DNA of 56,837 nucleotides from Nitrospiraceae bacterium (lineage in GTDB: Bacteria; Nitrospirota; Thermodesulfovibrionia; UBA6902): assembly GCA_003599425.1 (NCBI GenBank), contig QZKC01000004.1, positions 1 through 56,837 of the forward strand, read 5' to 3'. The first letter of the stretch is position 1, and every line of letters begins with the position of its first letter. The position numbers and the translations under genes were made by a program. This document shows, piece after piece, positions 8,820-34,196 of this stretch. The notes under the pieces are model-generated. The model had not been told where the DNA came from and searched no databases. It saw only the letters and a list, made by a program, of their open reading frames with translations.

Positions 8820-8989
8820 TGGTTAATCCTGTTATGGTATTATTCCCCAAAGATCTTAAATTTCATTTGACATCTTTTCATGCACAAAGGGCAGCTCTGC
8901 ATCGATATTTCTCTGATCGACAAAAACATTACATTATTGCCTTAGAACCCTCATGTATCTTTCACAGTAAATATTCTTTTGCTGATAAC

Positions 8990-9096
8990 GTCTTTTTTTC
9001 AAAGGTGTCGCATAGAAATTCTCCGCAGACAACCCTTTGTGCCTTTGTCACTTTGTGCCAACCATTGGAACAGAGTGCTATGAATGATCAGGGATA
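8990..9096 (+). repeat. Dispersed 100-bp repeat, copy 2
   Basis: Matches the copies at 1-104 and 38556-38656. Its right end overlaps the last codons and stop of the minus-strand glycosyltransferase gene (end at 9078), so the repeat supplies that protein's extreme C-terminus. Confidence 0.8.
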
Positions 9097-10625
9097 AGTC
9101 TTTTGGGGAATAAGCTTAGGGCAACAAAACGCCACAGGACAGCTATGGTCCATGAGGCCCAGAACACATTAATTACGAGAAACCAGAAATCGTTCCTGAT
9201 CGTTGTCAGGCCATATGCTATCGCAGCGACTGATAGCAGGATCAGTATGATATGCGGAAGACATTTAAAAATACGTGCGCGAAGCGTGTGCTGCCTGCTG
9301 ACCTTCTGAGTTACCGTATATTGAGGAAGCCTCTTCCTGCTGAACAATGCTGCAAAAAAAGCGCTGGAGAAAACAGCAAAGAGCCCTGCCTGGGCCTGGA
9401 ACCTCTTGAAAGTATGCAGCCTGTAGGTTGTGATCCTGTTGGATAACAGATAGAGCAAAAAGTAAGGGGTCCTTGCAATAATGTAATGCCAGAAAGGTTC
9501 CCTCAATATAAAATGATGTGTAAAGAGAGCCCAAACAGGAATTATGAAAAATATGGGCAGGAAGATACCGAATACTACATAGTGAAACCCGATGTGGAAA
9601 TATTGCATCCGCTGATAAAAATCAAGCCCTTTCCTGAAAAGAGGGCTGTCCCATAATATGATGCGTATTGAATCAACAGACCATTGCCACCGCTGCTTCG
9701 TATGACTGATTATGTCTTCCGGGGCCGTTCCCTCAGTGTAGCTCTTATCATGATATACGGATCTCCAGCCATTGCTGTGGAGCAGGATTGAGGTGTGCAC
9801 GTCCTCAACGAAATTCCATGTTGAAAATCCCCCTATGGACTCCACCGCCGTCCTCCTGTACAGGACTCCGCTGCCGCATGAAAATGCCGCGTTGTCATAA
9901 TCTTTTCCGGACATCATGACGCTGTAAAACACATCATCAGAATTGCACCATGGGTCACCCTTGGGCAGCCTGAAGACCTGTTTGGTCTGGACAAAGCCTA
10001 TTCCCGGAATACTGAAATAGCCGATAATGCGGTCAATGATCTCAGGCTTTGCGATCTGATCAGCGTCAAGGGCTAAAATGAGATCGCCGCTGGTGAGTTT
10101 CAGTGCGTGATTCAGATTCCCTGCTTTTCTGTTTTCATGGGTGGGCCTTCGGATATATTCAATGTGATGCTGTTCGCAGAGTGATCTGACCTTGTCATCC
10201 TCTCCGTCATCCAGCACAAATATCTTTTTATTTTCATAAGCGATAGAAACTGCGGCGATCAGGGTTTTTTCGATGATCTCAACCGGCTCCCTGTTGACAG
10301 GGATGAAGATATCCACGCTGAAATTCTTTTTTTCAAGCGGCGGCCCTTCAGGCCGGTGATGCCGTTTGGCCCAGAGAACATTTCCCCAAAGGAGAAAAAG
10401 CAGGAGAAAGACCGACTCTGTGATAAGGAAGGCGGCTGCCATGTACCAATATTGCCATTGCGCATTAATGTAGCACCATCCGATGTAGATTGAGGCAGAC
10501 AGGGCCACGGCAATGGAAAAAAACTGTCCTGAAATCCTGTTCTTTCTCTGTTCTTTTTCGCCGTATCTCTGGTACGTTCTTTTCCCGCGGAGGTCGTCTA
10601 TCCAGTTTTTGATATTTTGCTTCAT
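9078..10625 (-). CDS. Cellulose-synthase-like family 2 glycosyltransferase
   Basis: A 515-aa integral-membrane processive glycosyltransferase of the BcsA/CesA type. Two membrane helices (about 33-55 and 62-85) precede the catalytic domain, with DDGEDD (D139/D140), DAD (187-189), VEDVHTS (the TED position, near 275) and QRWQW (311-315), the Q(Q/R)xRW acceptor motif. Four or more further helices follow. All catalytic motifs are intact. The C-terminal PilZ domain of BcsA is absent, so any c-di-GMP control would have to come from a separate protein. The gene starts nine bases after the barrel gene, indicating an operon, and its last codons lie in a dispersed repeat. The product polymer is unknown. 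Confidence 0.88.
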   Translation of the reverse strand: MKQNIKNWIDDLRGKRTYQRYGEKEQRKNRISGQFFSIAVALSASIYIGWCYINAQWQYWYMAAAFLITESVFLLLFLLWGNVLWAKRHHRPEGPPLEKKNFSVDIFIPVNREPVEIIEKTLIAAVSIAYENKKIFVLDDGEDDKVRSLCEQHHIEYIRRPTHENRKAGNLNHALKLTSGDLILALDADQIAKPEIIDRIIGYFSIPGIGFVQTKQVFRLPKGDPWCNSDDVFYSVMMSGKDYDNAAFSCGSGVLYRRTAVESIGGFSTWNFVEDVHTSILLHSNGWRSVYHDKSYTEGTAPEDIISHTKQRWQWSVDSIRIILWDSPLFRKGLDFYQRMQYFHIGFHYVVFGIFLPIFFIIPVWALFTHHFILREPFWHYIIARTPYFLLYLLSNRITTYRLHTFKRFQAQAGLFAVFSSAFFAALFSRKRLPQYTVTQKVSRQHTLRARIFKCLPHIILILLSVAAIAYGLTTIRNDFWFLVINVFWASWTIAVLWRFVALSLFPKRLIPDHS

Positions 10626-10634
10626 GAGTAATGA

Positions 10635-11705
10635 TTAAAACCTGTGCTGAAATGCGATAGTATAGTTTGTTGCCCAAAAGCGGTCGCCTTCCTCCAGCCT
10701 TTCAACACCCTCGTTCTGGTCAAACCACCGTGCATCAAAGCGCAGTGATGATCGTTCCGTGAACGCATAAGATGCTGAAAGGAAGGCAGACTTTGACAGG
10801 CCGCTGCTTTTGGGAGAATATGAAAGCGCAGCTTCTGCACCCAATGAGAGATGCTTATTGAAAGCTTGACGATATTCAAGCCGCAGGGTATGAGTTTCGA
10901 AATTAATGGGGTCCCAGTAAGCGGATTCGACGGTATCTTTGCTTCTCGCGACAGGCGCAGGGTCTTTTATATCAAGATAGAAATAATTGTAAGCTGCCCG
11001 AAGGTATGGGTTGTCAAGCACCTGATACCCTGCTTCTAACATTAAACTGCGCTTTTCGTTGCCGTCTGAATAGTCGCCGTATACTACTTCACCAGCGAAT
11101 GACACCTTTGGAGCAGGGTAATACAGGAGATATAACTTGTAGTCATCAGTCTGAATATCGCGAACGACCGACCCAATGGTGACTACATGGCTGTAAATGA
11201 CGTTGTTAAACGGCAGCACCGTGTCAATAATATCAAAGTGCCTGAAACTGAACTCAGTAAAAACATTTGCTAACGGCTGATAGCGAACGAACAGGCCGCC
11301 ATTCAGATTTGTATTGTCATTATCATATAAATTTCCGGACAGGCGAGCTAACAGGGTGATGCTTCCGGAAAGCCGGTTTTCCCCCTGAATGAACACGGAA
11401 TGCCTCAATATATCTTCAAAGCCATCCTGAGAAAAATCTGACAGCACATAACCGGTCTCAAGATGTAACCCTTCTGCAGCAGAAAAACCGAACTCGGCTC
11501 CGGCGCTTTTCCGAGTGAAATCAGATGAGTTGGTGTAATATTCTGACAGCACTTTCATTGAAAAAGCAGTAAAAACTGAGAAAGGCTTATCCTGTCCTTT
11601 TGTTTGCTGAATCGAACTATCATTGTCCGTAGCGATAGCTGACATGCTGTCTGAGATGCACAATAATAATGCGGTCAGGAGCAGGATGGTTTTATACTTT
11701 CGCAT
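10635..11705 (-). CDS. Outer-membrane beta-barrel protein (YaiO-like)
   Basis: A 356-aa protein with a clear signal peptide (MRKYKTILLLTALLLCIS, cleavage near residue 25) and then alternating-strand sequence with aromatic girdle residues, ending in ...TIAFQHRF with a terminal phenylalanine, the usual outer-membrane insertion signal. The strand pattern (LHLETGYVLSDFS, LRLEYRQAFNKHLSLGAEAAL, RSSLRFDARWFDQNEG) resembles YaiO-type barrels. It is the first gene of a tight operon with the cellulose-synthase-like enzyme and probably forms the outer-membrane exit or anchoring port for the polymer. It lacks the TPR scaffold of BcsC, so the secretion complex would be minimal. The YaiO assignment is by resemblance. 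Confidence 0.75.
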   Translation of the reverse strand: MRKYKTILLLTALLLCISDSMSAIATDNDSSIQQTKGQDKPFSVFTAFSMKVLSEYYTNSSDFTRKSAGAEFGFSAAEGLHLETGYVLSDFSQDGFEDILRHSVFIQGENRLSGSITLLARLSGNLYDNDNTNLNGGLFVRYQPLANVFTEFSFRHFDIIDTVLPFNNVIYSHVVTIGSVVRDIQTDDYKLYLLYYPAPKVSFAGEVVYGDYSDGNEKRSLMLEAGYQVLDNPYLRAAYNYFYLDIKDPAPVARSKDTVESAYWDPINFETHTLRLEYRQAFNKHLSLGAEAALSYSPKSSGLSKSAFLSASYAFTERSSLRFDARWFDQNEGVERLEEGDRFWATNYTIAFQHRF

Positions 11706-11838
11706 TGTTGCAGTGTCCTTACAAAAAGAAGAATGTTAAAATTTCATGAGTGCAAGAAGCAGGAGATATTATAAGGCATAAGCGTTAAATATTAACAGGG
11801 GATATAAGCGGGGTTGTTTGAACCTGCGCGGACAGGTC

Positions 11839-12588
11839 TTATGTCTTGTGTACGGCCTGTTTCAGCATTGACAACATCTTTTTTCTTTGAGACCAGAAAA
11901 CGAGTGGCAAGGCGCCTGATATAAATAAAAGCACCTGTCCCGGCTCGGGCACGACAGTCACGTCCAGCTTTACACTGCCGGAATTGTCAACAGAGTTAGT
12001 GTCATTGATATAGAAATAGAGATTGGCATTTTCTTTAAGTGAAATGGTCATGCCATCAACATTAGAGCGGTAAAAATTAAGTGAATCATTTGCAGTGGAT
12101 GCGATATAAGCCCCTTCGCCAAAGTTGAAATTGCCGTCATAATCAGCCCATATCTGCACATAATTATTCCACTGATTCCCTCCCCAGTAAGCCAATAAAT
12201 TATATGCTGAGGAGTCGGGGGCCAACCGTATATCATACAGCCCTTTCTCTAAATATATACTGGTCCAGATCGGGTTTGAGGGGGCATTGAACGGGTCGCC
12301 TCCGGATTCCAGCCACCAGTCAAAAGTATTCATATCAGGGTCAGATACAAGTGCATCAAGACTGCTCCATCGAAGTGCTTCCGGGTCGCCATATCGCCAC
12401 TGGTAATAGTAATTAGTTGTATTTTTATACCTCACATATAGATACGTACTTGTCAGGTTATCTTCCGACCAGCCGGCATTCGCAATGCCGTCGAGGGTTA
12501 CCGAAGCAGTTGAAGCATTAGAGTATGAGAAAGGGATCAAAGCCAGCATCATAACTCCCAATAACATGTTAACTAACTTTTTTTGCAT
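11839..12588 (-). CDS. PEP-CTERM sorting-domain protein
   Basis: A 249-aa exported protein. The N-terminus is a Sec signal peptide with a hydrophobic stretch ending near SNA-S. The C-terminus carries the full PEP-CTERM tripartite signal: VPEPGQ, a hydrophobic helix (VLLFISGALPLVFW) and a basic tail (SQRKK). Such proteins are processed by exosortase and are linked by family knowledge to exopolysaccharide production. The body is Asn/Tyr/Trp-rich beta-type sequence of unknown role. It is immediately upstream on the same strand of the exopolysaccharide operon, which supports a shared matrix function. No exosortase gene is in the window. Confidence 0.85.
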   Translation of the reverse strand: MQKKLVNMLLGVMMLALIPFSYSNASTASVTLDGIANAGWSEDNLTSTYLYVRYKNTTNYYYQWRYGDPEALRWSSLDALVSDPDMNTFDWWLESGGDPFNAPSNPIWTSIYLEKGLYDIRLAPDSSAYNLLAYWGGNQWNNYVQIWADYDGNFNFGEGAYIASTANDSLNFYRSNVDGMTISLKENANLYFYINDTNSVDNSGSVKLDVTVVPEPGQVLLFISGALPLVFWSQRKKMLSMLKQAVHKT

Positions 12589-12693
12589 CTTTATGACTCC
12601 TTTAAACCTTGTCTTTGCTCTCTGTAGAAACTGATCATCAGAGTGTTCCAGAAATTGCCACGCAGATATTTATTTGAATAATTACCTGATAAA

Positions 12694-12709
12694 TGGCAAG
12701 AATCATGCC
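12694..12709 (+). promoter_or_regulatory. Candidate sigma-54 promoter (-24/-12)
   Basis: TGGCAAGAATCATGCC has the invariant GG and GC dinucleotides ten bases apart and matches TGGCA at -24. It would drive the large plus-strand gene starting at 12994 with a leader near 270 nt. Confidence 0.35.
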
Positions 12710-12810
12710 TAAAGACCTTAGTTTTGTACGACGAGTTTTATGCTGTTTTTTTAGGAGATTAAATCTTGTGGCGCAATAATGCATTGATGTGACAAGATGG
12801 CGGTGACACG

Positions 12811-12824
12811 GCAACAATGTGCCA
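12811..12824 (-). promoter_or_regulatory. Imperfect sigma-54-like box for the PEP-CTERM gene
   Basis: The minus strand reads TGGCAC, four bases, TTGC. Both half-boxes match the consensus, but GG and GC are nine instead of ten bases apart, which usually weakens function. It lies inside the GTGACA/TGTCAC inverted repeat, so it could instead be part of a protein-binding site. Confidence 0.22.
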
Positions 12825-12993
12825 TGTCACAATGTATGAAATGCTTTGCGCTGTATGATGATCCTTTGTATCAGATATGGTTATCTTGATAATTTTCATT
12901 TGCCGTGTTAGTCTTTTTAATCTCATACTAAATTCCTGCGCTTCTATGCATGAGGGCGCGAAAGGACGCGGCGTCAGAACAGGAGGAGGTCTC

Positions 12994-15900
12994 ATGAAGG
13001 CGGCGGTTGAGTTGCTTTTATCTGTTCTCATTCTGATTCTGATCATCTCCGGCGCTCCCTCACTGGCCCAGGCAGCAAATCAATCCAGAACATCCTGCTC
13101 TGATAATCCGTCACTTATGCAGATGACCCCCACATCTCTTAATACTGGCCAGACTATCCAGTTATCGTTGGTCGGCCTTGATCTTGAAAAGGCTTCTGTT
13201 TCTCTGGATCTCGGTGCAGGCATAATTGTCATGGGGAAGCCGGTCGCCAAACCAAGCATAGCAGCGACCAAAATGTATACTGTTTCGGTCAATGTGCTGC
13301 CTTCGGCGCCTGCAGGGGCGCATCCTGTAAAGATCAAGTTCTGTAACGGAACACAAACCAAGGAGACAGGTTTGAGTGTCACTGTCATTGCTGCTGCACC
13401 TATCATGAGCGACGACAGAATAATCACTGATGACAGAACAGGCGAAACGAACCGTCAGCAGTGCACTGAAAATCCCCGTATTGACCAGATGAATCCCTAC
13501 ACTGCAGTTCAGGGGCAGATGAATCTTCAGCTTGAACTCAGAGGCTGGGACCTGGACAAGCCAGGCATGATGTTTGACTTTGGCGCGGGTATCGTTGTGA
13601 TCGGGAGGCCCCTCATGCAGAAAAGAGTGTCTGATCGAGTGAATATTTATAAGGTGGGCATTAATGTGCTTCCTGCAGCACCGTCAGGCGCCCATGCCTT
13701 GACGATCAGATACTGTAACGGCACAAAGACACTTCAGACGAGAGCAACTCTACTTGTTAATGCCAGCACACAGCAAACACCTGTGGCTGTGCCTCAAATA
13801 CAGACCTCGCCCGCAGTCTCACAACAGGCAGCGCCCCCAACAATCCCAACAGCTATCCTCGCAGTAGCTCCGAACCAGTGGCAGCCCGGCAAGTCATATC
13901 ATTTGATAATTACGGGAATGAACCTCGTTTCAGGCATGGAGGTACAGTTTGGAAGCGGGATCAAGAATAAGAGCACATTCACCGTGCTCAGTACAAATCT
14001 TGCAAAGCTGCTGATCGAAGTTGAACCATCAGCAAAAGGCAGCAAAAAGGCCCGGATGAGAATGGCATCGTCAGACCCATGGAAGGACACCTCAGCAGTG
14101 GCATTCATTCAGACAGTTGAAGCGGCCCAGGCGCCAGTGAAGAAGGCCGCGATCAAGCTTCCAGATTTCAAGCCGGAGCTTGCCATTAAGGGGAAAATTT
14201 TTCTTGACGAGCCAAAGTGGCGCGAGATGATCGGCAGCACTGTTCCACCTAAGGGGCCTGACGGAAAGCCGCTCGGTCAGCCAACACCTATATATCAGCA
14301 GAAACATCCTGTGCTCAATGATTCCCTCATCTTTGACTGGCATGAGCAGAATCCGGGGACTGCTGAATGGTTCGAGATACGTTTCTTCCGGCAGGGACAA
14401 CTTATTGCAACACGAAAGATTGAATCCAAAAAATCCTGGTATGGCCTGCCCTTCCCTCCAAGCTCATTCCGTCCGGACGGCCCACTGGTGGGAGAACTGT
14501 TGAAGGCAGTCCCGGCTAAATCAGGTAGCAAGGATACGTTGCAACTGGCCAATATGAACGGGATACAGGGAAGCGTTGATCTCGAAACCGCTTTGCCAAA
14601 GGCTGACCTGGCTTGGGAAGTGGCGGGTTTTCGGAAATATTCCGGCAACGGCGTGGTCACAACAGCCTCACTTGAAGAGCCTGTCCTGTATGCTGCTTCA
14701 GGCCAGCAGGGCAGCGTCATGACGGATGCCCCTGCTGCAAATTTACCGGCCTCACAGGCGCCGGTGATCAAGGAAGTAGAGATATCTGAACGCTGGCCTC
14801 TTTATGCTGCTGACAGGCCGACCGGCCTTGCGTGCCCGACTGCGAGTTCCACAGGCGGACTTGATGTGGTAAACATAGACGCTGAGGCTATGAAAAACAA
14901 GGGAGGTGTGAAAATCTCCACTGCAAACCATGCCTATGACCGCTTTGCTTTGAGCGGAAAAATAAATCTGGCCAAGAGCCCGTATGCTGCGCATGCGAGC
15001 AAGACTCAGACATCAACTCCGGATACGAGCGGATCTTTTTCAGGTCCCTTAGGCGGAAGCGTAAGCTATGGGTCTAAATCCCAGGTGCTCTTTACTACGT
15101 GGACCTTCGAGAATGTATTCATAGACTGGGGCGACGGTACAGTTCAACCCCTGAGCATGACACAGGGAGGCGACGCCGGAGACTATAGCCAGGAGAAAGC
15201 CCTTGATATAAGCAAAGCAATGGAGAAATATCAGCATGCGTACAAAGAACCGGGGAGCTATACCGTCCGCATATATCAACTTTCCTCTGATGATGTACAG
15301 GGCGGCGGCCAGCAGGCAGCTGTTTCCTCTATCTCCAATAATCAGGCTGGCGGCAGTCTTTACCAGTTGGCAATGGGAGCATCAGGCGGTGTGCAGGCAA
15401 AGGCTTCTGCTGCTGAGATGGAGTACGGCAAGGCAGTGGCTGACCGTGCCTATATGCTCTTTTGCAAAAACATTATAATCGAGCCCCGCACTGACCCTGA
15501 TGCAAACGGCCTCTTGCATCTGGTGAACATTGAAGTGCAGGGCTTTCCCAATCCTCCGGGGAATAAAAAGACAATGCCAAAAAAGACAAAGGCCAACACA
15601 TCGGCCGAACCAGCCACAACCGGCTCTGCTTCAAATAGTGTGTCAGCCGTCAATGCTGCTATTGCTGTGGAAGAGTTATCGCCTCTGTCATTGCTGGGGA
15701 ACATGCCGGCATACAGTGCATGCGACTACCAGCTCACTGCCGGTGCGAAACTGTCTTATTATGGACAGGGCGACGTAAAACTCACCTGGTTCGTTGACAG
15801 CATGGCTCTGCCGTCCGAGGAATTTCCTGTCGGGCCATCCAAAGGGCGGCCAGACAAAGTACTGTCCCAACCACAATCCACATGGGGTGATCCTGTAGTG

Positions 15901-18900
15901 GATGATCTTGCACCGCTGCTTTCCCCTCCGATCGGCCTTGAGAAGCTGGGAAAACGTGAGGTCCGTGTAGAGGCAGAGGTGGTGCACAAGATCAGCGGGT
16001 ATGGCCTCATGAATCTGGTACAGGCTGCACTTGGCGCAGGAGGCAAGCAGGACGCTGGATTAGCTCAGGCACTCTCAACTGCGATGAAGCAGGAGGGCGT
16101 GAAGCTGGGGGTTCTCTCTCCGTTCAAGACACCAGTCAAAGGTGGGACAGGGCCAATGAGCTTTCTCAATACTCCTTTGGAGCGAGTGGCTGCAGCAGGC
16201 CTGACACACCTGGCGGCTAAATTTTCTGAAGGGAACAGTTATGCTCCGTTGAGCGATGTCAAAACCGGGGTAGTGGCAATAACAAAAAAACAGCCGCCCG
16301 AGTTCGTACAGTCTGAAACGAGGCAGTACCTTGTTGTGGGATATAATTCGGAACAACCCTGCACCCTGAAATTTCCGGTGAAGGATGGATATTTTCTCGT
16401 GGCCGGCCTTCAGGAGCCTGGAGGAAAGTCCAAGGTAACACGAAAGGGCAACAGTTTTAGCGGTCAGGGGGAATTGATCGTTCCTGTACCCACGGTCTCA
16501 GGAGTGAAGACGTTGAAGGCGCCAATTACGTTCCAGGACTGGAAGGTCGTGTCTGACGGTGTGTCAGTGGATTCAGGAACCTTTGATATAACAAATAGCG
16601 GACTGCCTGAGACGCTTCTGTCTGGCCTGAAAGGCCGCTTCAGCCGACTTAAAGGCGCAGCAGGAGACCATGTGGATGCCTGGCTCGATGCGCAGCTTTC
16701 AAACACGGCACTGACCAAATCAGCATCACCCGGCGCGGTGCCGGAATGGAAAGGAGTAATGGCTGCGCTGAGTCCTGCGGGCGACTGGTTTGCAGCAGGC
16801 ACACCAATGCCTGAGATCCTGATATACGATACCGGGTTCCGTATTACACCCGCTTCAGCAAACCTCGATCTTAGCGCAAAAGAGGGTGCACAGGTCAGTT
16901 CAAACTGTCAGGGAGATGCAGGCATTGCCTGGCGCGGAGTACAGTTTGGCAGTGGCACTGTTCTGAATTTTTATAATTTCGATCTGCCCGTTGCACCACC
17001 TCAGACGCAGGTGAGTGACTGGGCCATTGATAGTGCAGGGATATGCGGCAAGGCGAATACCGGACAAGCCTCCCATCAGTGGCTTAAGGGGAAGATCAGC
17101 TGGTCTAATATAGCTGCCCAGGCGCAGGGAGGAAGCTTTAAGGCTACCTATCATGACCTCATAGTTCATGTCCCGTGGCTTAATGTAGACCTGAAAGGAT
17201 CAGCAGACCCTGTGATAACTGGCGGAAAAGGCCAGGGCACAGGCGGTATAACACTTGCACTTACAGGCGGGCCAAAGACTGTGAAGAATGGGCCTGTTAC
17301 CCTGAAGGCTGACAATATGCTTTTCACTACATTAAAGGGCATTGGTCCGGTCGTGCAGACTGATACCTGTTTTGACTTTCAGGGAGAGAAGCAGGCATTT
17401 GCAAAGGATGTCTGCGTTAATGGATTGCACTATGGCCTTGACGGCAAGGCATATTTTGCAGACGGCAAGCCACATGCTGTTCAACTTACCGGCAAGAAAG
17501 GCAACATTGCTCAAAGTACGGTCGATCTGAAGAGCGTTGTCATCACTGCATCTGCCGGTAGTGAGAACCGTCTCGGTTTTGCTTTTGATACGGATCTGAC
17601 CATATCAAAGGTCCTGCAGGCTGCGAAAGCGCCTGTGTCTTATTCAATTACAGAATCCCCATCAGGCGTGTACAATGGTACGGGGCCTGTAACCGGGTCG
17701 GTAACGGCTATCCAATTTGTATCGCCCAATATCAAGGCAACTATTACCCCCGTATATGCCGGGCCTACTGATGGAAGCGCCGGATTAAATCCCGTGCAGT
17801 TTGCGATGGATAATAGCTCAGGTATGAGCGATGCACCTTTTCAGATAGCGCTGGCAACACCTTCCAATATTATCTACAAGGGAAGTGTAGATCTGACACC
17901 GTTTGAGCTCGGAGTGCCTGTAAAAGGGGTGTTCGTATTGGGCTATCAGGGCGATACCGATTTCTGGGCTGCCAAGGGCACCTTTGTTTTTCCGGCTTCA
18001 GGGGCGCCGCTTGTACCGCCGCTTGTAAACATGTTTGAAGTTGGAGGCGGTCTTGGGTATCATGTAACACGGGCCTCTCTCATTGATGCCAACCTTGAGT
18101 ATGTGCAGTTCAGCAGCGATTCAGTGCCGGTTTTTAATGCGCATACCCTCATCGGTTCCGGATGGGACGGTGGCTTTACTTTTGCTGTGAAAGGAGAGCT
18201 CACCATAAAGACTGGAGGCAGCGATTCAGGTGTGGGCATGAATTACGATGCGTGGCTCCTGTCATCGAGCCATGGCGGCAAGGGCGATCTTTACGGCGAC
18301 CTTACTTATGGCGGCGGCGCCTTCTCCGGCAACATGAACGGCCATCTGAGCATCTTTGGGACTGACGCCGTATATGTGGAGGCAAAGAATAATGCGATCG
18401 CTTTTTCCGTGGGCAATGGCGACTGGTATTTTAACCTGGGCAGTGAAGGCAATCCCGTGACAGGCCATGTACTTGTTGTTGATGCCGGAGCCTGGATGAA
18501 TCTGAGCAAGTCAAAAGGCCTTCATGTGGGAGCCAAGGCTGACAAGCGCTTCCCTGACATTACATGTGATAGCGGCACGTGTGCTTATGTTCAGGGCAAA
18601 GTAAAGGTTGATGCGGGTATCAATCCCTCGCCCTTTTCCCTTTCTGCCAAAGGCAATGCAGGGGTGGATGCAAAGGCCTGTGCATCAGGGTTTTGTCTGG
18701 GCGCTGGGGTAGATGCAAGCGTCCATGCAGGAGTGCCTCCGCCGTCATTAGGGTTTGCCTGTAATCTGAATGGCTGCCCGATCGGCAAGCTGAGTGTAGG
18801 ACTGGACATTCTCCCTGCGCCAAAACCGAACATAAGCGCCAGTTTCTGCAGCCTGGCTGAAGCTGGAGAGGCTATTGCAACGGGCATTGAAAACCTGGGA

Positions 18901-18966
18901 AGTGCGCTTGAGGATTTTGGCGAGAGCGTCGGAGATGCCATAACCTCGTGTTTGGGACTCTGCTGA
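12994..18966 (+). CDS. Giant exported multidomain protein (1990 aa) with IPT-like repeats and PKD-like domain
   Basis: The start is ATG 12994, preceded by AGGAGGAGG; it gives a signal peptide (MKAAVELLLSVLILILI, cleavage after AQA). The upstream in-frame extension to 12877 lacks these features. Two near-duplicate domains follow (about residues 27-125 and 145-260), each starting with a cysteine (CSDNP, CTENP), containing a DLGAGI or DFGAGI strand and NVLPxAPxGAH, and ending with a YCNGT/FCNGT cysteine that probably makes a disulfide. A third, Cys-free copy is at about 285-380. A PKD-like unit (FIDWGDG near 710 and PGSYTVRIY near 755) follows. The last 1000 residues are glycine-rich beta-type sequence without recognised domains and end in CLGLC. 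It is first of four exported-protein genes. Function unknown. Confidence 0.8.
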   Translation: MKAAVELLLSVLILILIISGAPSLAQAANQSRTSCSDNPSLMQMTPTSLNTGQTIQLSLVGLDLEKASVSLDLGAGIIVMGKPVAKPSIAATKMYTVSVNVLPSAPAGAHPVKIKFCNGTQTKETGLSVTVIAAAPIMSDDRIITDDRTGETNRQQCTENPRIDQMNPYTAVQGQMNLQLELRGWDLDKPGMMFDFGAGIVVIGRPLMQKRVSDRVNIYKVGINVLPAAPSGAHALTIRYCNGTKTLQTRATLLVNASTQQTPVAVPQIQTSPAVSQQAAPPTIPTAILAVAPNQWQPGKSYHLIITGMNLVSGMEVQFGSGIKNKSTFTVLSTNLAKLLIEVEPSAKGSKKARMRMASSDPWKDTSAVAFIQTVEAAQAPVKKAAIKLPDFKPELAIKGKIFLDEPKWREMIGSTVPPKGPDGKPLGQPTPIYQQKHPVLNDSLIFDWHEQNPGTAEWFEIRFFRQGQLIATRKIESKKSWYGLPFPPSSFRPDGPLVGELLKAVPAKSGSKDTLQLANMNGIQGSVDLETALPKADLAWEVAGFRKYSGNGVVTTASLEEPVLYAASGQQGSVMTDAPAANLPASQAPVIKEVEISERWPLYAADRPTGLACPTASSTGGLDVVNIDAEAMKNKGGVKISTANHAYDRFALSGKINLAKSPYAAHASKTQTSTPDTSGSFSGPLGGSVSYGSKSQVLFTTWTFENVFIDWGDGTVQPLSMTQGGDAGDYSQEKALDISKAMEKYQHAYKEPGSYTVRIYQLSSDDVQGGGQQAAVSSISNNQAGGSLYQLAMGASGGVQAKASAAEMEYGKAVADRAYMLFCKNIIIEPRTDPDANGLLHLVNIEVQGFPNPPGNKKTMPKKTKANTSAEPATTGSASNSVSAVNAAIAVEELSPLSLLGNMPAYSACDYQLTAGAKLSYYGQGDVKLTWFVDSMALPSEEFPVGPSKGRPDKVLSQPQSTWGDPVVDDLAPLLSPPIGLEKLGKREVRVEAEVVHKISGYGLMNLVQAALGAGGKQDAGLAQALSTAMKQEGVKLGVLSPFKTPVKGGTGPMSFLNTPLERVAAAGLTHLAAKFSEGNSYAPLSDVKTGVVAITKKQPPEFVQSETRQYLVVGYNSEQPCTLKFPVKDGYFLVAGLQEPGGKSKVTRKGNSFSGQGELIVPVPTVSGVKTLKAPITFQDWKVVSDGVSVDSGTFDITNSGLPETLLSGLKGRFSRLKGAAGDHVDAWLDAQLSNTALTKSASPGAVPEWKGVMAALSPAGDWFAAGTPMPEILIYDTGFRITPASANLDLSAKEGAQVSSNCQGDAGIAWRGVQFGSGTVLNFYNFDLPVAPPQTQVSDWAIDSAGICGKANTGQASHQWLKGKISWSNIAAQAQGGSFKATYHDLIVHVPWLNVDLKGSADPVITGGKGQGTGGITLALTGGPKTVKNGPVTLKADNMLFTTLKGIGPVVQTDTCFDFQGEKQAFAKDVCVNGLHYGLDGKAYFADGKPHAVQLTGKKGNIAQSTVDLKSVVITASAGSENRLGFAFDTDLTISKVLQAAKAPVSYSITESPSGVYNGTGPVTGSVTAIQFVSPNIKATITPVYAGPTDGSAGLNPVQFAMDNSSGMSDAPFQIALATPSNIIYKGSVDLTPFELGVPVKGVFVLGYQGDTDFWAAKGTFVFPASGAPLVPPLVNMFEVGGGLGYHVTRASLIDANLEYVQFSSDSVPVFNAHTLIGSGWDGGFTFAVKGELTIKTGGSDSGVGMNYDAWLLSSSHGGKGDLYGDLTYGGGAFSGNMNGHLSIFGTDAVYVEAKNNAIAFSVGNGDWYFNLGSEGNPVTGHVLVVDAGAWMNLSKSKGLHVGAKADKRFPDITCDSGTCAYVQGKVKVDAGINPSPFSLSAKGNAGVDAKACASGFCLGAGVDASVHAGVPPPSLGFACNLNGCPIGKLSVGLDILPAPKPNISASFCSLAEAGEAIATGIENLGSALEDFGESVGDAITSCLGLC

Positions 18967-18994
18967 CATGCGGCATGACTATACATGACCCGGC

Positions 18995-19162
18995 TTATTC
19001 ATAAATTTTATTTGGACAAGCCATGGTTCGAGAACATCTTGAACGCAATGGATTATTAAAATACTTAACAATGCATATGCAAACAGAATATTTCAGAGTT
19101 ATGGATACTAAGGTATTGCTCAATATGTTCTCTCACCATACTTGTCCAAAATTACGCATAAC
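18995..19162 (+). mobile_element. MITE-like element, copy 2
   Basis: Same landmarks as the copy at 5258 (TTATTCATAAATTTTA, CAAGCCATGGTTCGAG, and at the right ATATGTTCTCTCACC and CTTGTCCAAA). The right terminal repeat has decayed (TTACGCATAAC). It sits between two genes of the exported-protein cluster and carries an open frame that reads into the downstream gene, which can mislead start prediction. Confidence 0.75.
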
Positions 19163-19202
19163 TCAGAGCAGATGCAGGCTTTACATGTTGAGAGGGAATG
19201 AA

Positions 19203-21167
19203 TTGATAAAGAGAACAATAATACCGTTACTCATAGCATTTTTAATCATGGGAAATGCGCTGCCGCTCTTTGCGCAAAGCGGGGTCAAGGCACAGGCATA
19301 CTCTGCATCAGACGGTGAGGGCGGGGTAAGACTCATGTGGTTCGTGACGCCGGACCGCTGGCGCGGGGGATGGCGTGTAGAGGATGAAACAGGCAAGATG
19401 CTTGCCGATAAAGTAATCCCCGGCAGAGCGGATGCAATGAAGGTCCTTAGTGCTTCATCTCAGGCAGAGATCAACAGCATCATGCAAAATACAGGAGAGC
19501 GGAACAGTAAGAAAAGCGGGGCAGCGCAGGATATTGCATTTGGTATGCACGTGTTTGCAGACTGGAACTTTGCACAGGCCGCAGGTCTCGCCGTGGAGTT
19601 GAAGGGATTAGAGAAGCGCCGCACCTCATTTGTTGTCCGCAGACTTGATAATAATGGCAAACCTGACGGCGCTTATCTGAAGACAGAACCTGTTGACCTT
19701 GCGAAGGCAGCCCCGCCACCGCCATCGCCGCGGGAATTCAGGGCAGAAGCGTCAAAGAACGGGGTGAGCCTCTACTGGCGTCTTGCGCGGAACCCACTGC
19801 CTGTTTTTGCCTATGTAGTGGAACGTGAGGACAAGGGAGAGATTCGCGCCCTGACAGATACTCCCCTTCTTCTTGGCAGTGCCTGGCCGGAGAATTCTCC
19901 GGCATTTATTGATGACCAGCCTCCTCTGGAGCAGGATGTGGTCTATCTTGTCCGTGCAGTTGACGCGCTGGGAAGACGCTCCAACCCTGTTGCAGTAGGT
20001 ATTTTTTCGCCTGATTTTTCTGCTCTTGACGCGCCTATGGATGTGAAGGCAGAAGCGCCTAAAGCAAATACAGTAGAATTATCATGGAAGGCAAACAGCA
20101 GTTCCAATACAGCCGGGTATCTTGTGGAACGTTCGTACCAGCTCTCCGGCCCGTACGAGATACTGACGCCAGAAGGAGTGAGCCGCGGTACAACGAAGTA
20201 TCAGGATAAGGGCCTTCGTGCGGGGACTACTTATTTCTACCGTGTGCGGGCAATCGGGTCCAGAGGGGATACGGGGCTGCCGGGTAGTCCTGCAATGGCG
20301 GTAGTCCGTGGGGATGCCTTACCAGCGCCGGAAAACCTTGCCACGGAAACAGGGCAGACCCGCATTCGGCTGACATGGGAAGCGGTCTCTGCTGCATCAG
20401 GCTACCACGTGGAACGGCGCACCGGAAATAACAGCCCCTGGAGCCGTCTCACAGGTATTCCATTGCCTGATAGCCTCTATGACGACCATGTGGGCTACAG
20501 CCCGGGCGGCAAGTTTGAATATCGCGTTCTTGCAGTTGGCTACGATGGCCAGGATGGAAAGACCTCACGGACGATCGAGGTGATACTGCAGGATACTGTG
20601 CCGCCGCCGCCGCCACGCTTTACTGCGGCCAGCGGCGAGGGAGGAAAGGTAGTAATCGCATTTTCACCTTCGTCACCTGAAGAGGACACAGCTCAGGTGC
20701 TGGTGCTGCGTTCTGATCAGCCCGAAGAACAGGGACTGGTGATAGGAGATCCACTTTCAGGCAGGGAGCGCAAGTTTGAGGACAAATGGGTGGAGCCGGG
20801 ACGACGTTACTATTACCGTCTTGTAGCAGTGGATGCGAGCGGAAATCGGAGCGATCCTGGCGAAGCAGTGGGGATAACCATAGGACATGCACCTCTGCCT
20901 AAGCCTGATGCGCCCAAAGTTGCCTATGAAGACAAACCCTTTCCACATGTGCGCCTGCGATTTGATGAGCCGCCAAAGGGGCTCAGGGTTATCGTAGAGG
21001 CACAGACCAGCGCAGGAGCATGGCTCTATATATCAGGGCCGGTCACAGGCAAAGAGGCCATAGACCTCGATCCCGGCAAGGAAGCCAAACGTTACCGCCT
21101 GCGTTATCAGGATGCAGGAGGCGCTGTGGGCCAGGCCTCTCAGGAGGCCGCGCTTTCCGGACGCTAA
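19203..21167 (+). CDS. Exported fibronectin type III repeat protein
   Basis: About 654 aa. The preferred start is TTG 19203, six bases after AGAGGG; the signal peptide then reads MIKRTIIPLLIAFLIMGN and ends FAQ-S. An upstream in-frame ATG at 19023 lies inside the MITE-like element and is rejected. After an N-terminal beta domain (about 25-180), four or five fibronectin III modules follow, each with the core W near the second strand and a Y-x-Y/Y-x-V-x-A strand (VELSWKA, TYFYRVRAIG, IRLTWEA, FEYRVLAVGYDG, RYYYRLVAVDASG). Pro-rich linkers separate them. Such proteins usually mediate surface adhesion or scaffold large surface structures. It lies in the cluster of exported proteins; its partner is unknown. 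Confidence 0.78.
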   Translation: MIKRTIIPLLIAFLIMGNALPLFAQSGVKAQAYSASDGEGGVRLMWFVTPDRWRGGWRVEDETGKMLADKVIPGRADAMKVLSASSQAEINSIMQNTGERNSKKSGAAQDIAFGMHVFADWNFAQAAGLAVELKGLEKRRTSFVVRRLDNNGKPDGAYLKTEPVDLAKAAPPPPSPREFRAEASKNGVSLYWRLARNPLPVFAYVVEREDKGEIRALTDTPLLLGSAWPENSPAFIDDQPPLEQDVVYLVRAVDALGRRSNPVAVGIFSPDFSALDAPMDVKAEAPKANTVELSWKANSSSNTAGYLVERSYQLSGPYEILTPEGVSRGTTKYQDKGLRAGTTYFYRVRAIGSRGDTGLPGSPAMAVVRGDALPAPENLATETGQTRIRLTWEAVSAASGYHVERRTGNNSPWSRLTGIPLPDSLYDDHVGYSPGGKFEYRVLAVGYDGQDGKTSRTIEVILQDTVPPPPPRFTAASGEGGKVVIAFSPSSPEEDTAQVLVLRSDQPEEQGLVIGDPLSGRERKFEDKWVEPGRRYYYRLVAVDASGNRSDPGEAVGITIGHAPLPKPDAPKVAYEDKPFPHVRLRFDEPPKGLRVIVEAQTSAGAWLYISGPVTGKEAIDLDPGKEAKRYRLRYQDAGGAVGQASQEAALSGR

Positions 21168-21250
21168 TGCCATAGAAGAACTTAATGTTATTGATGTATA
21201 CTTAATCTCTTTAGAAAAAGTCAGTTCCTGAGCAAATACATTCTGAACAA

Positions 21251-21370
21251 AATGACAAAAAAATTAGCCGCGAAGGCACAAATTCACAAAGTAAAAGATT
21301 GTTTTGGAAAAAATTCGCGCCTTGGTGTCTTTGTGGCAAAAAACTTAGTTCCGTTTTTACCGGATTAGGG
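21251..21370 (+). repeat. Leader repeat, copy 1
   Basis: About 120 bp, similar to 23411-23540. An interrupted palindrome (CGAAGGCACAAATTCACAAA on the left, GCGCCTTGGTGTCTTTGTGG on the right) is followed by GGCAAAAAAC, a TTCCG...CCGGATTAGGGGGA segment and then the start codon of the next gene. The repeat therefore supplies the purine-rich ribosome-binding region. Confidence 0.75.
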
Positions 21371-21377
21371 GGATTAT

Positions 21378-23390
21378 ATGAGAACTTATCTGTTGGCTGT
21401 AATTGTCTGTGTTGCTGTAGTGATGTCTGTTTCTGCTGATGCGTTGTCTCAGAACGAGGTGATCAATGTGGTCGCTCCCCAGAATGCCTCTGAGGTGATC
21501 GGCAAGAAACCTGAGATCAGGATAGAGTTCAGCGTTCCTGTTGACCCGGCGAGCATTATCGTGATCCTTGACGGAACAGATGTGGCCCAGGTGGGAACAA
21601 AAAACGAGAGGTCTTTTGTCTACACGCCAATAAGCGCATTGCCTTCAGGTTTGCACAATCTAACTGTTATCGCGAACGACCAGAGCGGAAATCCTTATCA
21701 AAAAGATAGTACATTCCTGAGCCGCCATACTACTGCATTTGACGAAGCATACTCCAATAACGAAGTCGCGGCGATCTACGAGTCTGCTGTCATGAAACCG
21801 GAACGGTCTGTGACCACTCCATATTCGAAAATAGAGGGAAACATCAGCACCGATTCAAAACTGAAGACCAAAGATTACGAGTTGGGATTCACAGCGAATC
21901 TGAGATATTTTGACCAGAGCCTTCCGGCGCTCTCCTCAGTGCTCTCCTCAGGGACGAATACTTCCACTCAGGACCAGAACCTTCTGAAAAAGGGTCTCAG
22001 CCTTGCCAACTTCTTATTCACTGGTAAATATATGAAAGACCCGTTCACGGCAACAGCCGAGCTTGGTGATGTCCAGGCAAGCGAGACACAAAATACTGTC
22101 TCAGGACTTGCCCGCCGCGGAGGCAGGCTGATGCTCGAATACGGAGACGCAATGCTGAGCGCCTTTGTTGTGAAGGGCGAACGCGTGGCGGGATTTTACG
22201 GAGGCTTCGGCATTGATGGGTCGAGCGATGACCATATCTATGGCGCATCGGCTGCTGTTAAGTTCATTGATAAGAAAGCGGAGTTCAAGGCAGTCTACGT
22301 TAGCGGCGGAGAACCGCCCTCTTCTGTAGGTACAGCAACCTCAGCAAGCATACCCACATCGACTCCGGGCCTCGTGAAAGACGGCACTCACACAAAAGGC
22401 GACGTGATCGGCGCACAACTCGTGACCGATTTCTTTGAGAACCGTTTCAGGACAGAGATCGAAGTCGATTCATCAAGATTTGATTTTGATGTGCAGGATT
22501 CAGTTAATGAGGAAAGCGATGTTGCCTATCGCGCAAAGGCTGACGGCCTGCTCGGCCGCTATAATTACGAGGCGAAATATGAGTTTTACGGAAGGGATTA
22601 CGCAGTGATCGGCAATCAGGGCGCGATGAAGGATTCACAGCTCTTCAGTTTTATGAACGGGCTGGTACTTGAAGGCCACAGCATGACACTCTCCCTTGCA
22701 CGGACAAATGATAACGTAGAAGAAGACTGGACGCTTCCCCGCATTGTGAAAAAGGACGGGATGCTCACATACAGTTTCATGAAGATACCTCAATTGCCGG
22801 TTACACTTGTGTATCAAAAGAGCCTGCAGGAGAGCTCTCATGAACCGGACGGAACGAATGAGATCGACATTATGACAGATACAGCAACAGGATCAGTGAG
22901 CTATGTGGCTGGAGGCTTCAGTACATCATTTACTGCTGTATATTCACTGCAGAATGACAGGACATCAACAAATGCCGATACACGGACGACCACCTATGTG
23001 CTTGCACCGGCATATGCTACACCTGTCTTTTCTATAATGCCCATGGCGTCATGGAACAGGACAAAGGATACGGCCAGTGATGTAAGGACCGACACTTATA
23101 CGGGCGGGCTGAATCTCTACAGCAGGTTCTTCAATGACCGCATAGCCTTTGACGCCGGAGGCACCTACACAATCGTCCGGAATGATAGTGATACGTTAAA
23201 AACTAATGACTTTAATGGCACCCTGAGAGTAGGATACAATATGAAACATTGTTTGAAATGGCTTACAGACCCGATGGTCGCGTTAAGAGGGCAGTATGTG
23301 CGGCATGTAGACAAAGTGGACCATTCAGCCGACGGGGACGAGTTCCTTCTCTTCCTTGTGCTGTCAACAACAATACCGATTTCTCTTTAG
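21378..23390 (+). CDS. Outer-membrane protein: Ig-like N-terminus plus beta-barrel
   Basis: A 670-aa protein with a signal peptide (hydrophobic core LLAVIVCVAVVMSVS, cleavage near ADA-L). Residues about 30-115 form an Ig-like domain of the Big_5 type (PQNASEVIGKKPEIRIEFSVPVDP, split here as a motif around residues 38-61, then GTDV and LPSGLHNLTVIAND). Residues about 140-670 show repeated amphipathic strands with alternating polar and aromatic residues (YELGFTANLRYFDQS, FRTEIEVDSSRFDF), ending in LFLVLSTTIPISL, consistent with a large barrel. The start follows GGGGGAT in a leader repeat. It is the third gene of the exported cluster and probably anchors it in the outer membrane. No TonB box was seen, so a TonB-dependent receptor is not supported. 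Confidence 0.72.
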   Translation: MRTYLLAVIVCVAVVMSVSADALSQNEVINVVAPQNASEVIGKKPEIRIEFSVPVDPASIIVILDGTDVAQVGTKNERSFVYTPISALPSGLHNLTVIANDQSGNPYQKDSTFLSRHTTAFDEAYSNNEVAAIYESAVMKPERSVTTPYSKIEGNISTDSKLKTKDYELGFTANLRYFDQSLPALSSVLSSGTNTSTQDQNLLKKGLSLANFLFTGKYMKDPFTATAELGDVQASETQNTVSGLARRGGRLMLEYGDAMLSAFVVKGERVAGFYGGFGIDGSSDDHIYGASAAVKFIDKKAEFKAVYVSGGEPPSSVGTATSASIPTSTPGLVKDGTHTKGDVIGAQLVTDFFENRFRTEIEVDSSRFDFDVQDSVNEESDVAYRAKADGLLGRYNYEAKYEFYGRDYAVIGNQGAMKDSQLFSFMNGLVLEGHSMTLSLARTNDNVEEDWTLPRIVKKDGMLTYSFMKIPQLPVTLVYQKSLQESSHEPDGTNEIDIMTDTATGSVSYVAGGFSTSFTAVYSLQNDRTSTNADTRTTTYVLAPAYATPVFSIMPMASWNRTKDTASDVRTDTYTGGLNLYSRFFNDRIAFDAGGTYTIVRNDSDTLKTNDFNGTLRVGYNMKHCLKWLTDPMVALRGQYVRHVDKVDHSADGDEFLLFLVLSTTIPISL

Positions 23391-23410
23391 TCGCTTAATG
23401 GTTAAGCTTT

Positions 23411-23540
23411 TGACAAAATGATAAGTAAATTAACCACTAAGGCACAAAGCCACAAATGAAAAAACTGTTTTGTAGATCATTCGTGCCTTAGTGTCTTCGT
23501 GGCAAAAAACCTTGGTTCCGGCTTTGCCGGGTTTAGGAGG
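23411..23540 (+). repeat. Leader repeat, copy 2
   Basis: Second copy of the repeat at 21251. The palindromic halves are CACTAAGGCACAAAGCCACA and TCGTGCCTTAGTGTC plus TTCGTGGC, closer to a perfect palindrome than copy 1. It ends in TTTAGGAGG, which is the Shine-Dalgarno sequence for the ATG at 23547. Confidence 0.8.
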
Positions 23541-23546
23541 ATGAAA

Positions 23547-24611
23547 ATGAAAAAAATATATTCACTCGTAATTGCGATCATGATCTTTTGTGCTGGGTAT
23601 GCTGAGGCGGTGGTGGGCACAGTATCTCCTCCATCAATTTCCGTGACGCAGGGCATTTCAGCAACATCAACTCTGGTCTATAGGCTGAGCGATATTGCAG
23701 TGGCTGACTGCCAATACCGGTCAAGCAAGGGCAGCTTCATTAGTGGAAGGAGTTCACTTCTTGAAGAAAATCCTGCTGCGCTTACTGTCATCGTTCCTCC
23801 TGCGATCAACAGCGGCTCGGCTACCGAGACGCTCAGGATCCCGGCTGGCCTCATCGAGAAGGTGTTGCGGCAGAATGTCCGTACGTTTACATATACTCGT
23901 GTATTTGAGACGGATACCTGTGATGATGTTTCAGTAACAATGAACGTGACTATCTCGATCACAGGCGAGGCTGCAGCGGAATTCGGCATAACACGGATGG
24001 AGCTCTACTTCGAAAACAGGCGGCCTGAGATCACGCTCGAGAGAAACATGCCTGACCTGAAGGCCTTTGCGGACATCCGGTTTGTCGGCTCAGGTCTCCT
24101 TGAGGGATACTGGGAGGTTGACGGAAGGCTTATCAGCCGGGAGTTCCGCCATCTCACTTATGGAAGGAGTGTAACGCTTCAGTCACAGCAGATTCCCGGC
24201 CTTCCGACTTTTGATGAAGGTTCTCATATCGTTCGTTTTGTGGTTACCAAACCCGCTTCTGACATTGCTACGCCGTTCATCGTCTATTTCGTCACTCCCA
24301 AGGAGGCCAGGATACGTCAGATCCCGCTTTTGCTCCTTGATCCAATTGAAGGAGGAAATGCCGGCGCTGCGACGAAATTCTCCTGGGACAAGCCTGCCGG
24401 TGCGGACATCTTCCTTATCTCTTTCTACGAAGACCCGGATGGAACGCCTGTTTTCTCTGCCTACACACGGGAGCCGTTCTATGTGCTTCCCAAACCTGTT
24501 GTGAGCATGGTATTTACTGCTGAGAGGCAGTATCTCTGGAAAGTGGTCGGATTTGATACAGAGAGCCAGGAGACGAGCGAGAGCGGCAAGAGGACATTCA
24601 TCATCAAGTAA
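23547..24611 (+). CDS. Exported protein of unknown function (354 aa)
   Basis: ATG 23547 lies six bases after AGGAGG and gives the signal peptide KKIYSLVIAIMIFCAGYA with cleavage near EAV. An in-frame ATG at 23541 abuts the Shine-Dalgarno sequence, so it is less likely; the frame open from 23499 runs through a repeat. The mature protein is all-beta in appearance: an N-terminal domain with two cysteines about 75 residues apart (VADCQYR, TDTCDDV), a middle domain (LYFENRRPEITLERN, LLEGYWEVDGR, EGSHIVRFVV) and a C-terminal FN3-like unit (KFSWDKPAGADIFLISFYED, QYLWKVVGFD). I do not recognise the family. It closes the four-gene exported cluster. Confidence 0.7.
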   Translation: MKKIYSLVIAIMIFCAGYAEAVVGTVSPPSISVTQGISATSTLVYRLSDIAVADCQYRSSKGSFISGRSSLLEENPAALTVIVPPAINSGSATETLRIPAGLIEKVLRQNVRTFTYTRVFETDTCDDVSVTMNVTISITGEAAAEFGITRMELYFENRRPEITLERNMPDLKAFADIRFVGSGLLEGYWEVDGRLISREFRHLTYGRSVTLQSQQIPGLPTFDEGSHIVRFVVTKPASDIATPFIVYFVTPKEARIRQIPLLLLDPIEGGNAGAATKFSWDKPAGADIFLISFYEDPDGTPVFSAYTREPFYVLPKPVVSMVFTAERQYLWKVVGFDTESQETSESGKRTFIIK

Positions 24612-24780
24612 GTTCAAGGCTCGTCTCGGCGCAACTACAGACATACTGCACAGGATCAAGTACCGCATTTGACGGATGAGTAAGGATTCATGTATTCTTA
24701 TGTTATCCTGTCATTTCATCTTGACTACCCTAAACTGTTTTTTTCGTCAATAAAGGCTAATCAATAAAAGGAGGCGGACT

Positions 24781-24972
24781 ATGGCAATGCGTTCCGGCAT
24801 GTACAGCAGCAATAAGCGGAAGAAGGAGTTAATGCGGCAGAAAAAACAGGAAGAGAAAAGACTGAAACGTCATAAAAATGTTAAGTCTCCCTCTCAGGAC
24901 TCAGAAGAAACTGGCTCGATCAACACTGCTTCCGAATCCGGTGTAGATACGTCAGGGACAGAAATTAATTAA
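24781..24972 (+). CDS. Small basic Lys/Arg-rich protein
   Basis: A 63-aa protein preceded by AAAGGAGG at good spacing. Residues 9-34 are a highly basic helix (SSNKRKKELMRQKKQEEKR); the tail is acidic and Ser/Thr-rich. Short proteins beginning with an SSNKRKKEL-like segment recur in sulfate and metal reducers as conserved hypotheticals. The composition suggests RNA or ribosome binding, but this is inference. It is first in a run with two other small genes. Confidence 0.7.
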   Translation: MAMRSGMYSSNKRKKELMRQKKQEEKRLKRHKNVKSPSQDSEETGSINTASESGVDTSGTEIN

Positions 24973-25011
24973 TTTAACAAGTAACAAATTCAAATTTAAA
25001 AGGATAACAGC

Positions 25012-25443
25012 ATGGATAAGAAACACTCATTAGGCGGAGATATTGAAGCAATGTGTACAAAATGTAAATTGGAATTAGGCCATACAATTATTGCTATGGT
25101 TGATGATGTCCCTGAAAGGGTCAAATGCAATACCTGTAACGGGGAACACAACTATCGTACTAAGTCACCTAAAAAACCCCGTACAAGGTTAATGGACGCT
25201 GACCGGAAAGCAAGATCACGTGAAGCACATTACAATGAACAGATGTCCAGGATAACTGGCGGAGACCTGTCCAAGGCCAAAAAATACAGCATGGAAGACA
25301 ATTTCAAAAAAGATGAGTTAATAGACCACCCTGCATTTGGGCTCGGGATAGTCTTATCTGTAACTCAAAAAAACAAAATGGAGATTCTCTTCAAGGATGG
25401 GCCCAAACTGCTCATTCAAAACAGGGAAGCGGCAGTGCAATAA
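25012..25443 (+). CDS. Zinc-ribbon hypothetical protein
   Basis: A 143-aa protein with an N-terminal zinc ribbon (CTKCKLE at about 15-21 and CNTCNG at about 39-44), a basic middle (KSPKKPRTRLMDADRKARSR) and a C-terminal small barrel-like segment (HPAFGLGIVLSVTQKNKMEILFKDG, which I place at residues 108-132) that resembles SH3-type domains of transcription-associated proteins such as CarD or RapA. It is followed after 11 bases by ywbE, suggesting an operon. A nucleic-acid-related role is likely, but no specific function can be stated. Confidence 0.7.
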   Translation: MDKKHSLGGDIEAMCTKCKLELGHTIIAMVDDVPERVKCNTCNGEHNYRTKSPKKPRTRLMDADRKARSREAHYNEQMSRITGGDLSKAKKYSMEDNFKKDELIDHPAFGLGIVLSVTQKNKMEILFKDGPKLLIQNREAAVQ

Positions 25444-25454
25444 GGTGACGCTCT

Positions 25455-25667
25455 GTGGATGGGACCAGGCGTTCGGACATAAAACCGGGGTTGCGTGTTT
25501 CGATAGTATTGAAACAGGACCAGAGTACCGCAAAACTGACAGAAGGAATTGTAAAAGATATTTTAACCAAATCTCCGACGCATCCGCATGGGATTAAAGT
25601 CCGGCTGGAAAACGGGGAAGTAGGACGAGTTAAAGTTATTCATTTATCGGGCGCCTTGCCCACTTGA
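25455..25667 (+). CDS. ywbE: YwbE family protein
   Basis: A 70-aa protein starting at GTG 25455 after AAGGTG. The sequence DIKPGLRVSIVLKQDQS, then GIVKDILTKSPTHPHGIKV and LENGEVGRV, matches the conserved YwbE family of small beta proteins of unknown function. An overlapping frame starting at 25397 is a shadow. Its last 24 bases overlap the 3' end of the convergent rhlE gene, so the two mRNAs are complementary at their ends. Confidence 0.85.
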   Translation: MDGTRRSDIKPGLRVSIVLKQDQSTAKLTEGIVKDILTKSPTHPHGIKVRLENGEVGRVKVIHLSGALPT

Positions 25668-32484: not shown

Positions 32485-32503
32485 AATTGAGTATAGTTTA
32501 GAT

Positions 32504-33709: not shown

Positions 33710-33721
33710 AGACAAACGATA

Positions 33722-34195: not shown

Positions 34196-34196
34196 T

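Follow-up and report, generated by a model that had tools for sequence, protein, structure and literature searches.

Introduction

Few large outer-membrane barrels come with a dedicated partner, and every one known defines a way through the outer membrane. MtrB (PMC7198977) and LptD (PMC4353691) are both solved 26-stranded barrels filled by a partner protein, and LptD also carries a periplasmic N-terminal beta domain (PMC4353691).

The window (the whole stretch of DNA analyzed, 56,837 nucleotides) contains a cassette of four genes, which encode a giant protein, an FN3 protein, a barrel protein and a small all-beta protein, hereafter P4. Like MtrAB, whose barrel is partner-filled, the cassette has a 26-stranded barrel, according to an AlphaFold model; it has neither haem proteins nor a sequence match to MtrB in the PDB or Pfam, and its barrel bears an extra, putatively periplasmic Ig domain. 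With LptD/LptE it shares 26 strands, a periplasmic N-terminal beta domain and a two-protein partnership, all predicted for the cassette. However, its barrel was found in only 15 out of 230 genomes, and is thus no general LPS gene, there is no sequence match, the N-terminal domain is an Ig domain rather than an LptA-like one, and P4 is modelled as three Ig-like sandwiches. Finally, FimD resembles the cassette in its large barrel, in its Ig-like exported proteins and in giving the top Foldseek E-value, but TM scores were low and the cassette is devoid of chaperone and pilin genes.

Barrels, Ig-like and FN3 domains, subtilases and ECF pairs, the parts of the cassette and its relatives, are all of known kinds, but no curated family searched was matched by their combination, by the P4 family or by the 26-stranded barrel family. 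An earlier note on this DNA, made from the sequence alone, had not recognized a described system here, and we likewise found no match in family libraries, the PDB or a limited literature search. The cassette is unnamed and has a strict two-gene core, and its natural variants (with or without a protease, with or without the giant) make its function testable by comparison.

Results

Organization of the cassette and comparison with a sister species

The four genes lie on one strand, behind a leader that is common to the window and to genome G406, from another species of the same genus.

12883-12993, plus strand: upstream leader common to G406, probable promoter/RBS region of the cassette (local alignment)
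12994-18966, plus strand: giant exported protein P0001, 1990 aa (ORF, Pfam, relative in G406)
19203-21167, plus strand: FN3 exported protein P0002, 654 aa (ORF, Pfam)
21378-23390, plus strand: barrel protein P0003, 670 aa, core protein 1 (ORF, AlphaFold, family A6)
23547-24611, plus strand: P4 (P0004), 354 aa, core protein 2 (ORF, AlphaFold)

Each protein starts with a signal-type hydrophobic segment (19-residue maxima of 2.0-2.6), and no later stretch of comparable hydrophobicity was found in any of the four, in agreement with the earlier description of four same-strand genes encoding exported proteins only. In G406, the four genes were present in identical order, separated by 104, 32 and 10 bp. 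Protein identity between the window and G406 was 81%, 77%, 75% and 78% for the giant, FN3, barrel and P4 proteins, with dN/dS values of 0.10, 0.13, 0.14 and 0.14, respectively; all four genes are under purifying selection. The right flanks of the two cassettes were unrelated: in G406, a gene that we take to be uvrB, named from its sequence, starts within 3 bp after P4. On the left side, homology begins at about 12883, some 110 bp before the giant gene, in a comparison where the G406 contig itself begins about 460 bp before the giant start codon and 30 kb were read. The G+C content was 0.49-0.56 within the cassette versus 0.46 around it.

Among 37 genomes of the family, the barrel search returned the window genome and G406; a third match (E = 8e-5) covered the Ig part only. 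Eight further species of the genus were examined and all lacked the cassette, which implies that it has often been gained or lost.

The intergenic gaps of the window (156-236 bp) are wider than those of G406, because they are filled by a MITE-like element and dispersed palindromic repeats.

19012-19149, no strand: MITE-like insertion with imperfect terminal inverted repeats of about 25 bp, between genes 1 and 2 (sequence; missing from the G406 gap)
21247-21344, no strand: palindromic repeat in the gap that separates genes 2 and 3 (corresponding G406 gap, 32 bp)
23413-23510, no strand: another copy of this palindrome (81% identity), between barrel and P4 genes (barrel-P4 gap of 10-13 bp in relatives)

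Neither the MITE-like element nor either repeat copy was found in the G406 cassette. Taken alone, the wide window gaps could indicate four independent neighbours; however, these gaps hold inserted elements, and G406 keeps the same order with short gaps beside another right flank. This comparison rules out independent neighbours for the cassette as a unit, and we consider that reading extremely unlikely. The four genes are one conserved unit. Co-conservation in relatives, on which the earlier note had made its notion of a system depend, was thus observed: the four genes are intact in G406 next to an unrelated flank, and barrel and P4 occur together in 15 out of 15 barrel genomes.

The MITE-like element has related copies at 5265-5412 and at 56725-56837, the latter being the end of the contig. 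The core of the second palindromic copy (23413-23510) reads GTGCCTTnGTGTCTTnGTGGCAAAAAA. An Rfam search of window positions 12000-25500 returned no RNA elements.

The giant and FN3 proteins

The giant protein comprises a signal segment, three Ig/IPT-like domains, a PKD-like unit and about 1100 unclassified residues, with 21 cysteines in total.

13084-13398, plus strand: Ig/IPT-like domain 1, Cys-bridged, roughly residues 31-135, duplicate of domain 2 (self-alignment)
13444-13773, plus strand: Ig/IPT-like domain 2, Cys-bridged, roughly residues 151-260 (self-alignment)
15541-18966, plus strand: C-terminal portion of the giant, without a match to any family (Pfam, NCBIfam, PDB, dN/dS)

Domains 1 and 2 are near-duplicates (44 of 104 residues identical, 42%; shuffle z of 44) whose Cys pairs match, while the third domain has diverged (z of 5.3 against the first and 1.6 against the second). 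The G406 giant has just one of the duplicated pair. In Pfam, two stretches of the giant matched PF09099 (E = 1.2e-6) and none matched an IPT family, so that, of the three IPT-like domains proposed earlier, the Cys-bridged near-duplicate pair was recovered but the family assignment was not. The proposed PKD-like unit gave a weak match (E = 0.0019), below the Pfam cut-off.

The C-terminal portion, announced as 1000 unrecognized residues, proved to span about 1100 residues with no match in Pfam, NCBIfam or the PDB. The strongest constraint in the protein falls on its last 600 residues (dN/dS of 0.04-0.06 versus G406). In a profile search, this C-terminal half was present in 2 out of 230 genomes of the class, i.e., it has no relative there except in the sister species, and the full-length giant was seen in two genomes. 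The N-terminal half reaches further: in G196, a Thermodesulfovibrio-type genome, the gene order is a P0008-type exported protein, the barrel, P4 with a subtilase, and a relative of the giant N-terminal half (36%, residues 158-853), which ends at the contig edge. Giant, barrel and P4 are thus linked in two families.

The second protein carries the FN3 domain previously attributed to it (PF00041, E = 3.5e-15). Its gene most likely starts at the TTG codon at 19203, judging from the alignment of this codon with the G406 ATG and from the same Shine-Dalgarno sequence before both. The FN3 protein was seen in the genus of the window only.

A two-gene core across the class

Profiles of the barrel, the P4 core, the anti-sigma factor and the giant C-terminal half were run on 230 genomes of the class that contains Thermodesulfovibrio (Nitrospirota). 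The barrel was detected in 15 of them. P4 was found in all of these and in a sixteenth genome, where the contig begins within P4. The two genes were adjacent in almost every genome, with P4 second and both products exported; the barrel-to-P4 gap was 10-13 bp in 13 relatives, and contig ends fall between or inside the two genes in G096 and G156. In its minimal form (G447), the module consists of barrel and P4 alone. In other relatives, the satellites are exported CARDB/Ig-type proteins. A scan of the genome collection added further members in Nitrospirae and a few in Desulfobacterota MAGs.

The invariant core is therefore barrel plus P4, smaller than four genes, in a module that is patchily distributed in the class. 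To this core, single lineages have added the giant and FN3 proteins, and the view of a system led by the giant finds no support, since the giant is a variable satellite.

Predicted structure of the barrel protein

The AlphaFold model (17 sequences; pLDDT 81, pTM 0.63) predicts an Ig domain at residues 29-116 and a 26-stranded barrel at residues 123-668, which supports the earlier proposal of an Ig-plus-barrel outer-membrane protein; the Ig domain matched Big_13 marginally below the Pfam cut-off (E = 2.7e-5). In the model, turns of 2-8 residues lie on the side of the N-terminus and loops of 4-26 residues on the opposite side. Outer-membrane barrels usually have both ends in the periplasm, and by this convention the short turns and the N-terminal Ig domain would be periplasmic. 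The loops are short, and hence the model contains no built-in surface domain; it also contains no folded plug inside the barrel.

Foldseek searches of the PDB returned outer-membrane barrels generally. FimD had the best E-value (7.5e-9), with TM scores of 0.36/0.32 and an rmsd of 15 Å, and MtrB (6r2q_B) had the best TM pair among the matches listed (0.40/0.41; rmsd 14 Å). This similarity appears generic, and we claim homology to neither protein. At the sequence level, no match was found to the MtrB family in Pfam or the PDB, to usher families in Pfam, or to the LptD family in Pfam or the PDB.

The FimD match, together with the exported Ig-like proteins that travel with the barrel, could indicate usher-type or other dedicated fibre assembly, in which subunits would pass the barrel while being polymerized and form a fibre on the cell surface. 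However, TM scores and rmsd are poor, 26 strands are predicted whereas the FimD barrel has 24, and there is neither a chaperone gene nor a repeated subunit family: no PapD-type chaperone or pilin subunit was matched by Pfam in the four genes, and the cassette ends at P4 in G406. Fibre assembly is therefore very unlikely. The surface fibre, sheath or adhesion role initially suggested from the sequence is plausible, but the barrel loops are short and no fibre signature was found for the cassette.

An MtrB-like electron conduit would fit the strand number and the TM pair. Nevertheless, none of the four proteins contains a CxxCH haem motif, so that the cassette has no multihaem cytochrome; these missing haem sites largely rule out a conduit of this type, to which we give almost no weight.

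As a third alternative, the barrel could be a porin-like uptake or efflux channel for solutes or a polymer, with P4 and the satellites as polymer-binding proteins. Many exported Ig-like proteins adjoin the barrel, single members of the barrel family gave weak matches to Porin_4 and KdgM, and an exopolysaccharide-type locus is divergent from the cassette in the window. Catalytic or transport genes are, however, not conserved with the cassette, and the presumed uvrB is the next gene in G406; we regard such a channel as unlikely.

In G264 (L047:9087-10710), the barrel gene is broken and appears as two ORFs, the first of which is reported to contain an in-frame TAG. A family of barrels of about 417 aa (f27; L019-L035) matched part of the cassette barrel weakly; no P4 was found near these barrels within the stretch examined, and they were left out of the barrel family.

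P4, its subtilase form and the associated anti-sigma factor

P4 of the window, described before as a 354-aa all-beta protein, is predicted by AlphaFold (pLDDT 86) to consist of three all-beta, Ig-like sandwiches, for which the structure search gave generic matches only. Missing from it are the prodomain-like stretch and the S8 subtilase with which P4 ends in many relatives.

In eight genomes, P4 extends into these two regions. The S8 domain (PF00082) and the prodomain-like stretch that precedes it recall fervidolysin-type subtilases, from which the P4 proteins differ in two ways: here S8 forms one protein with the Ig-like region of P4, and an anti-sigma factor carries a further prodomain-like domain. 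Asp, His and Ser motifs were identified in the relatives, the Ser motif of G156 being outside the search pattern.

An anti-sigma factor with a Fervidolysin_NPro-like C-terminus was detected in 8 out of 8 genomes with S8-bearing P4 and in 0 out of 7 whose only P4 is without S8 (Fisher p = 1.6e-4, a value that ignores kinship, by which the counts are inflated). On the barrel tree, the S8 label needs four changes, two of them forced by well-supported branches, and the tie between anti-sigma factor and S8 therefore rests on few independent events. Wherever it was read, an ECF sigma gene (sigma regions 2 and 4) adjoins the anti-sigma gene. The pair resembles ECF sigma/zf-HC2 anti-sigma pairs in these regions, in zf-HC2 (5 out of 9 anti-sigma factors) and in one apparent membrane segment; it differs in the Fervidolysin_NPro-like C-terminal domain (8 out of 9), in its occurrence with S8-bearing modules and in being missing from the window genome. 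No anti-sigma factor of this type was found in the window genome (89.6% complete) or in G406. A literature search returned no paper joining anti-sigma factor, subtilase and prodomain, and the link between S8-bearing P4 and the prodomain-like anti-sigma factor appears to be undescribed. It points to a simple and testable way in which a cell could gauge the export of its proteins.

In G394, which has one P4 with S8 and one without, the barrel-module and sigma/anti-sigma contigs share a 71-bp end. In G196, the pair lies on another contig, whose end falls within the adjacent P0008 gene; abutting contigs would give this picture. A weaker anti-sigma match was obtained in G280, which has no barrel.

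These data bear on another reading, an envelope sensing and proteolysis module, in which barrel and P4 would report the state of the envelope, the P4 subtilase and the anti-sigma prodomain would form a protease switch and the satellites would be its regulon; the window cassette would then be a reduced form keeping the structural half. The co-occurrence of anti-sigma factor and S8 speaks for it. On the other hand, the window genome and G406 have neither, so that sensing cannot be the whole function of the window cassette. We judge this reading, including the reduced form, to be quite unlikely.

The ECF sigma genes with an anti-sigma gene encoding a PF22148 prodomain-like C-terminus lie at L036:3054-4206 and in L037, L038, L039, L042, L043, L045, L057, L063 and L080. 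In the P4 subtilases of L004, L036 and L037, from Thermodesulfovibrio-type genomes, SK or SI replaces the usual GN in the Asn stretch of the oxyanion hole, and the catalytic motifs are kept; those of G122, G394, L057 and G156 retain GN. The activity of the former three may differ. The P4 core also occurs by itself, as a short exported protein, at L041:6367-7113, L060:6695-7504, L084:3291-4022, L085:8223-9017 and L086:7943-8767; some of these genes adjoin the module and others lie elsewhere in the genome.

Proposed role of the cassette

We infer the job of the cassette from these comparisons, and propose, tentatively, that barrel and P4 may form an outer-membrane conduit and display platform, whose cargo at the cell surface would be the giant and FN3 proteins. 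P4 would act as a dedicated exported partner that binds the wide barrel and fills or caps it. The partner-filled barrels of LptD and MtrB suggest, without showing it, that P4 fills the cassette barrel. The core would then pass the giant and FN3 proteins across the outer membrane, or hold them there, resulting in surface display. Each lineage has exported Ig-like or beta proteins of its own around the core, here the giant and FN3 proteins; for the giant, it is gene linkage, and that only, that points to a role as cargo. Satellites vary so strongly from lineage to lineage that their roles may be distinct. In the subtilase form of other lineages, the P4 protease would process the cargo and report to the anti-sigma factor.

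A broader version, which we consider unlikely, is a new outer-membrane export and display system in which the 26-stranded barrel and its Ig-like partner would handle giant surface proteins peculiar to each lineage. In the full form, the anti-sigma factor, with its domain akin to the prodomain of the subtilase, would read the amount of periplasmic subtilase and so couple transcription to the state of export through a feedback switch.

Promoter region and neighbouring loci

The sigma-54-like box reported upstream of the cassette was not upheld: with up to three mismatches, 77 consensus matches were counted in the window versus 85 expected, i.e., the box is at chance level, and homology with G406 begins only at about 12883. 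A programme shared with the divergent exopolysaccharide locus, also suggested earlier, likewise finds no support in this result or in G406, where the presumed uvrB follows the cassette and no sign of such a locus was seen within the 30 kb read (limited on the left side to about 460 bp). A defence system was rejected, as there was no PADLOC match, and so was a plasmid-borne origin, neither giant nor barrel having a plasmid match.

In the window, the divergent locus (7947-12588, minus strand) encodes a GH26-like protein, a cellulose-synthase-like GT2, a probable barrel of 356 aa and a PEP-CTERM-type protein of 249 aa. Genes for type I restriction-modification (HsdM, HsdR) are located at 29144-37250.
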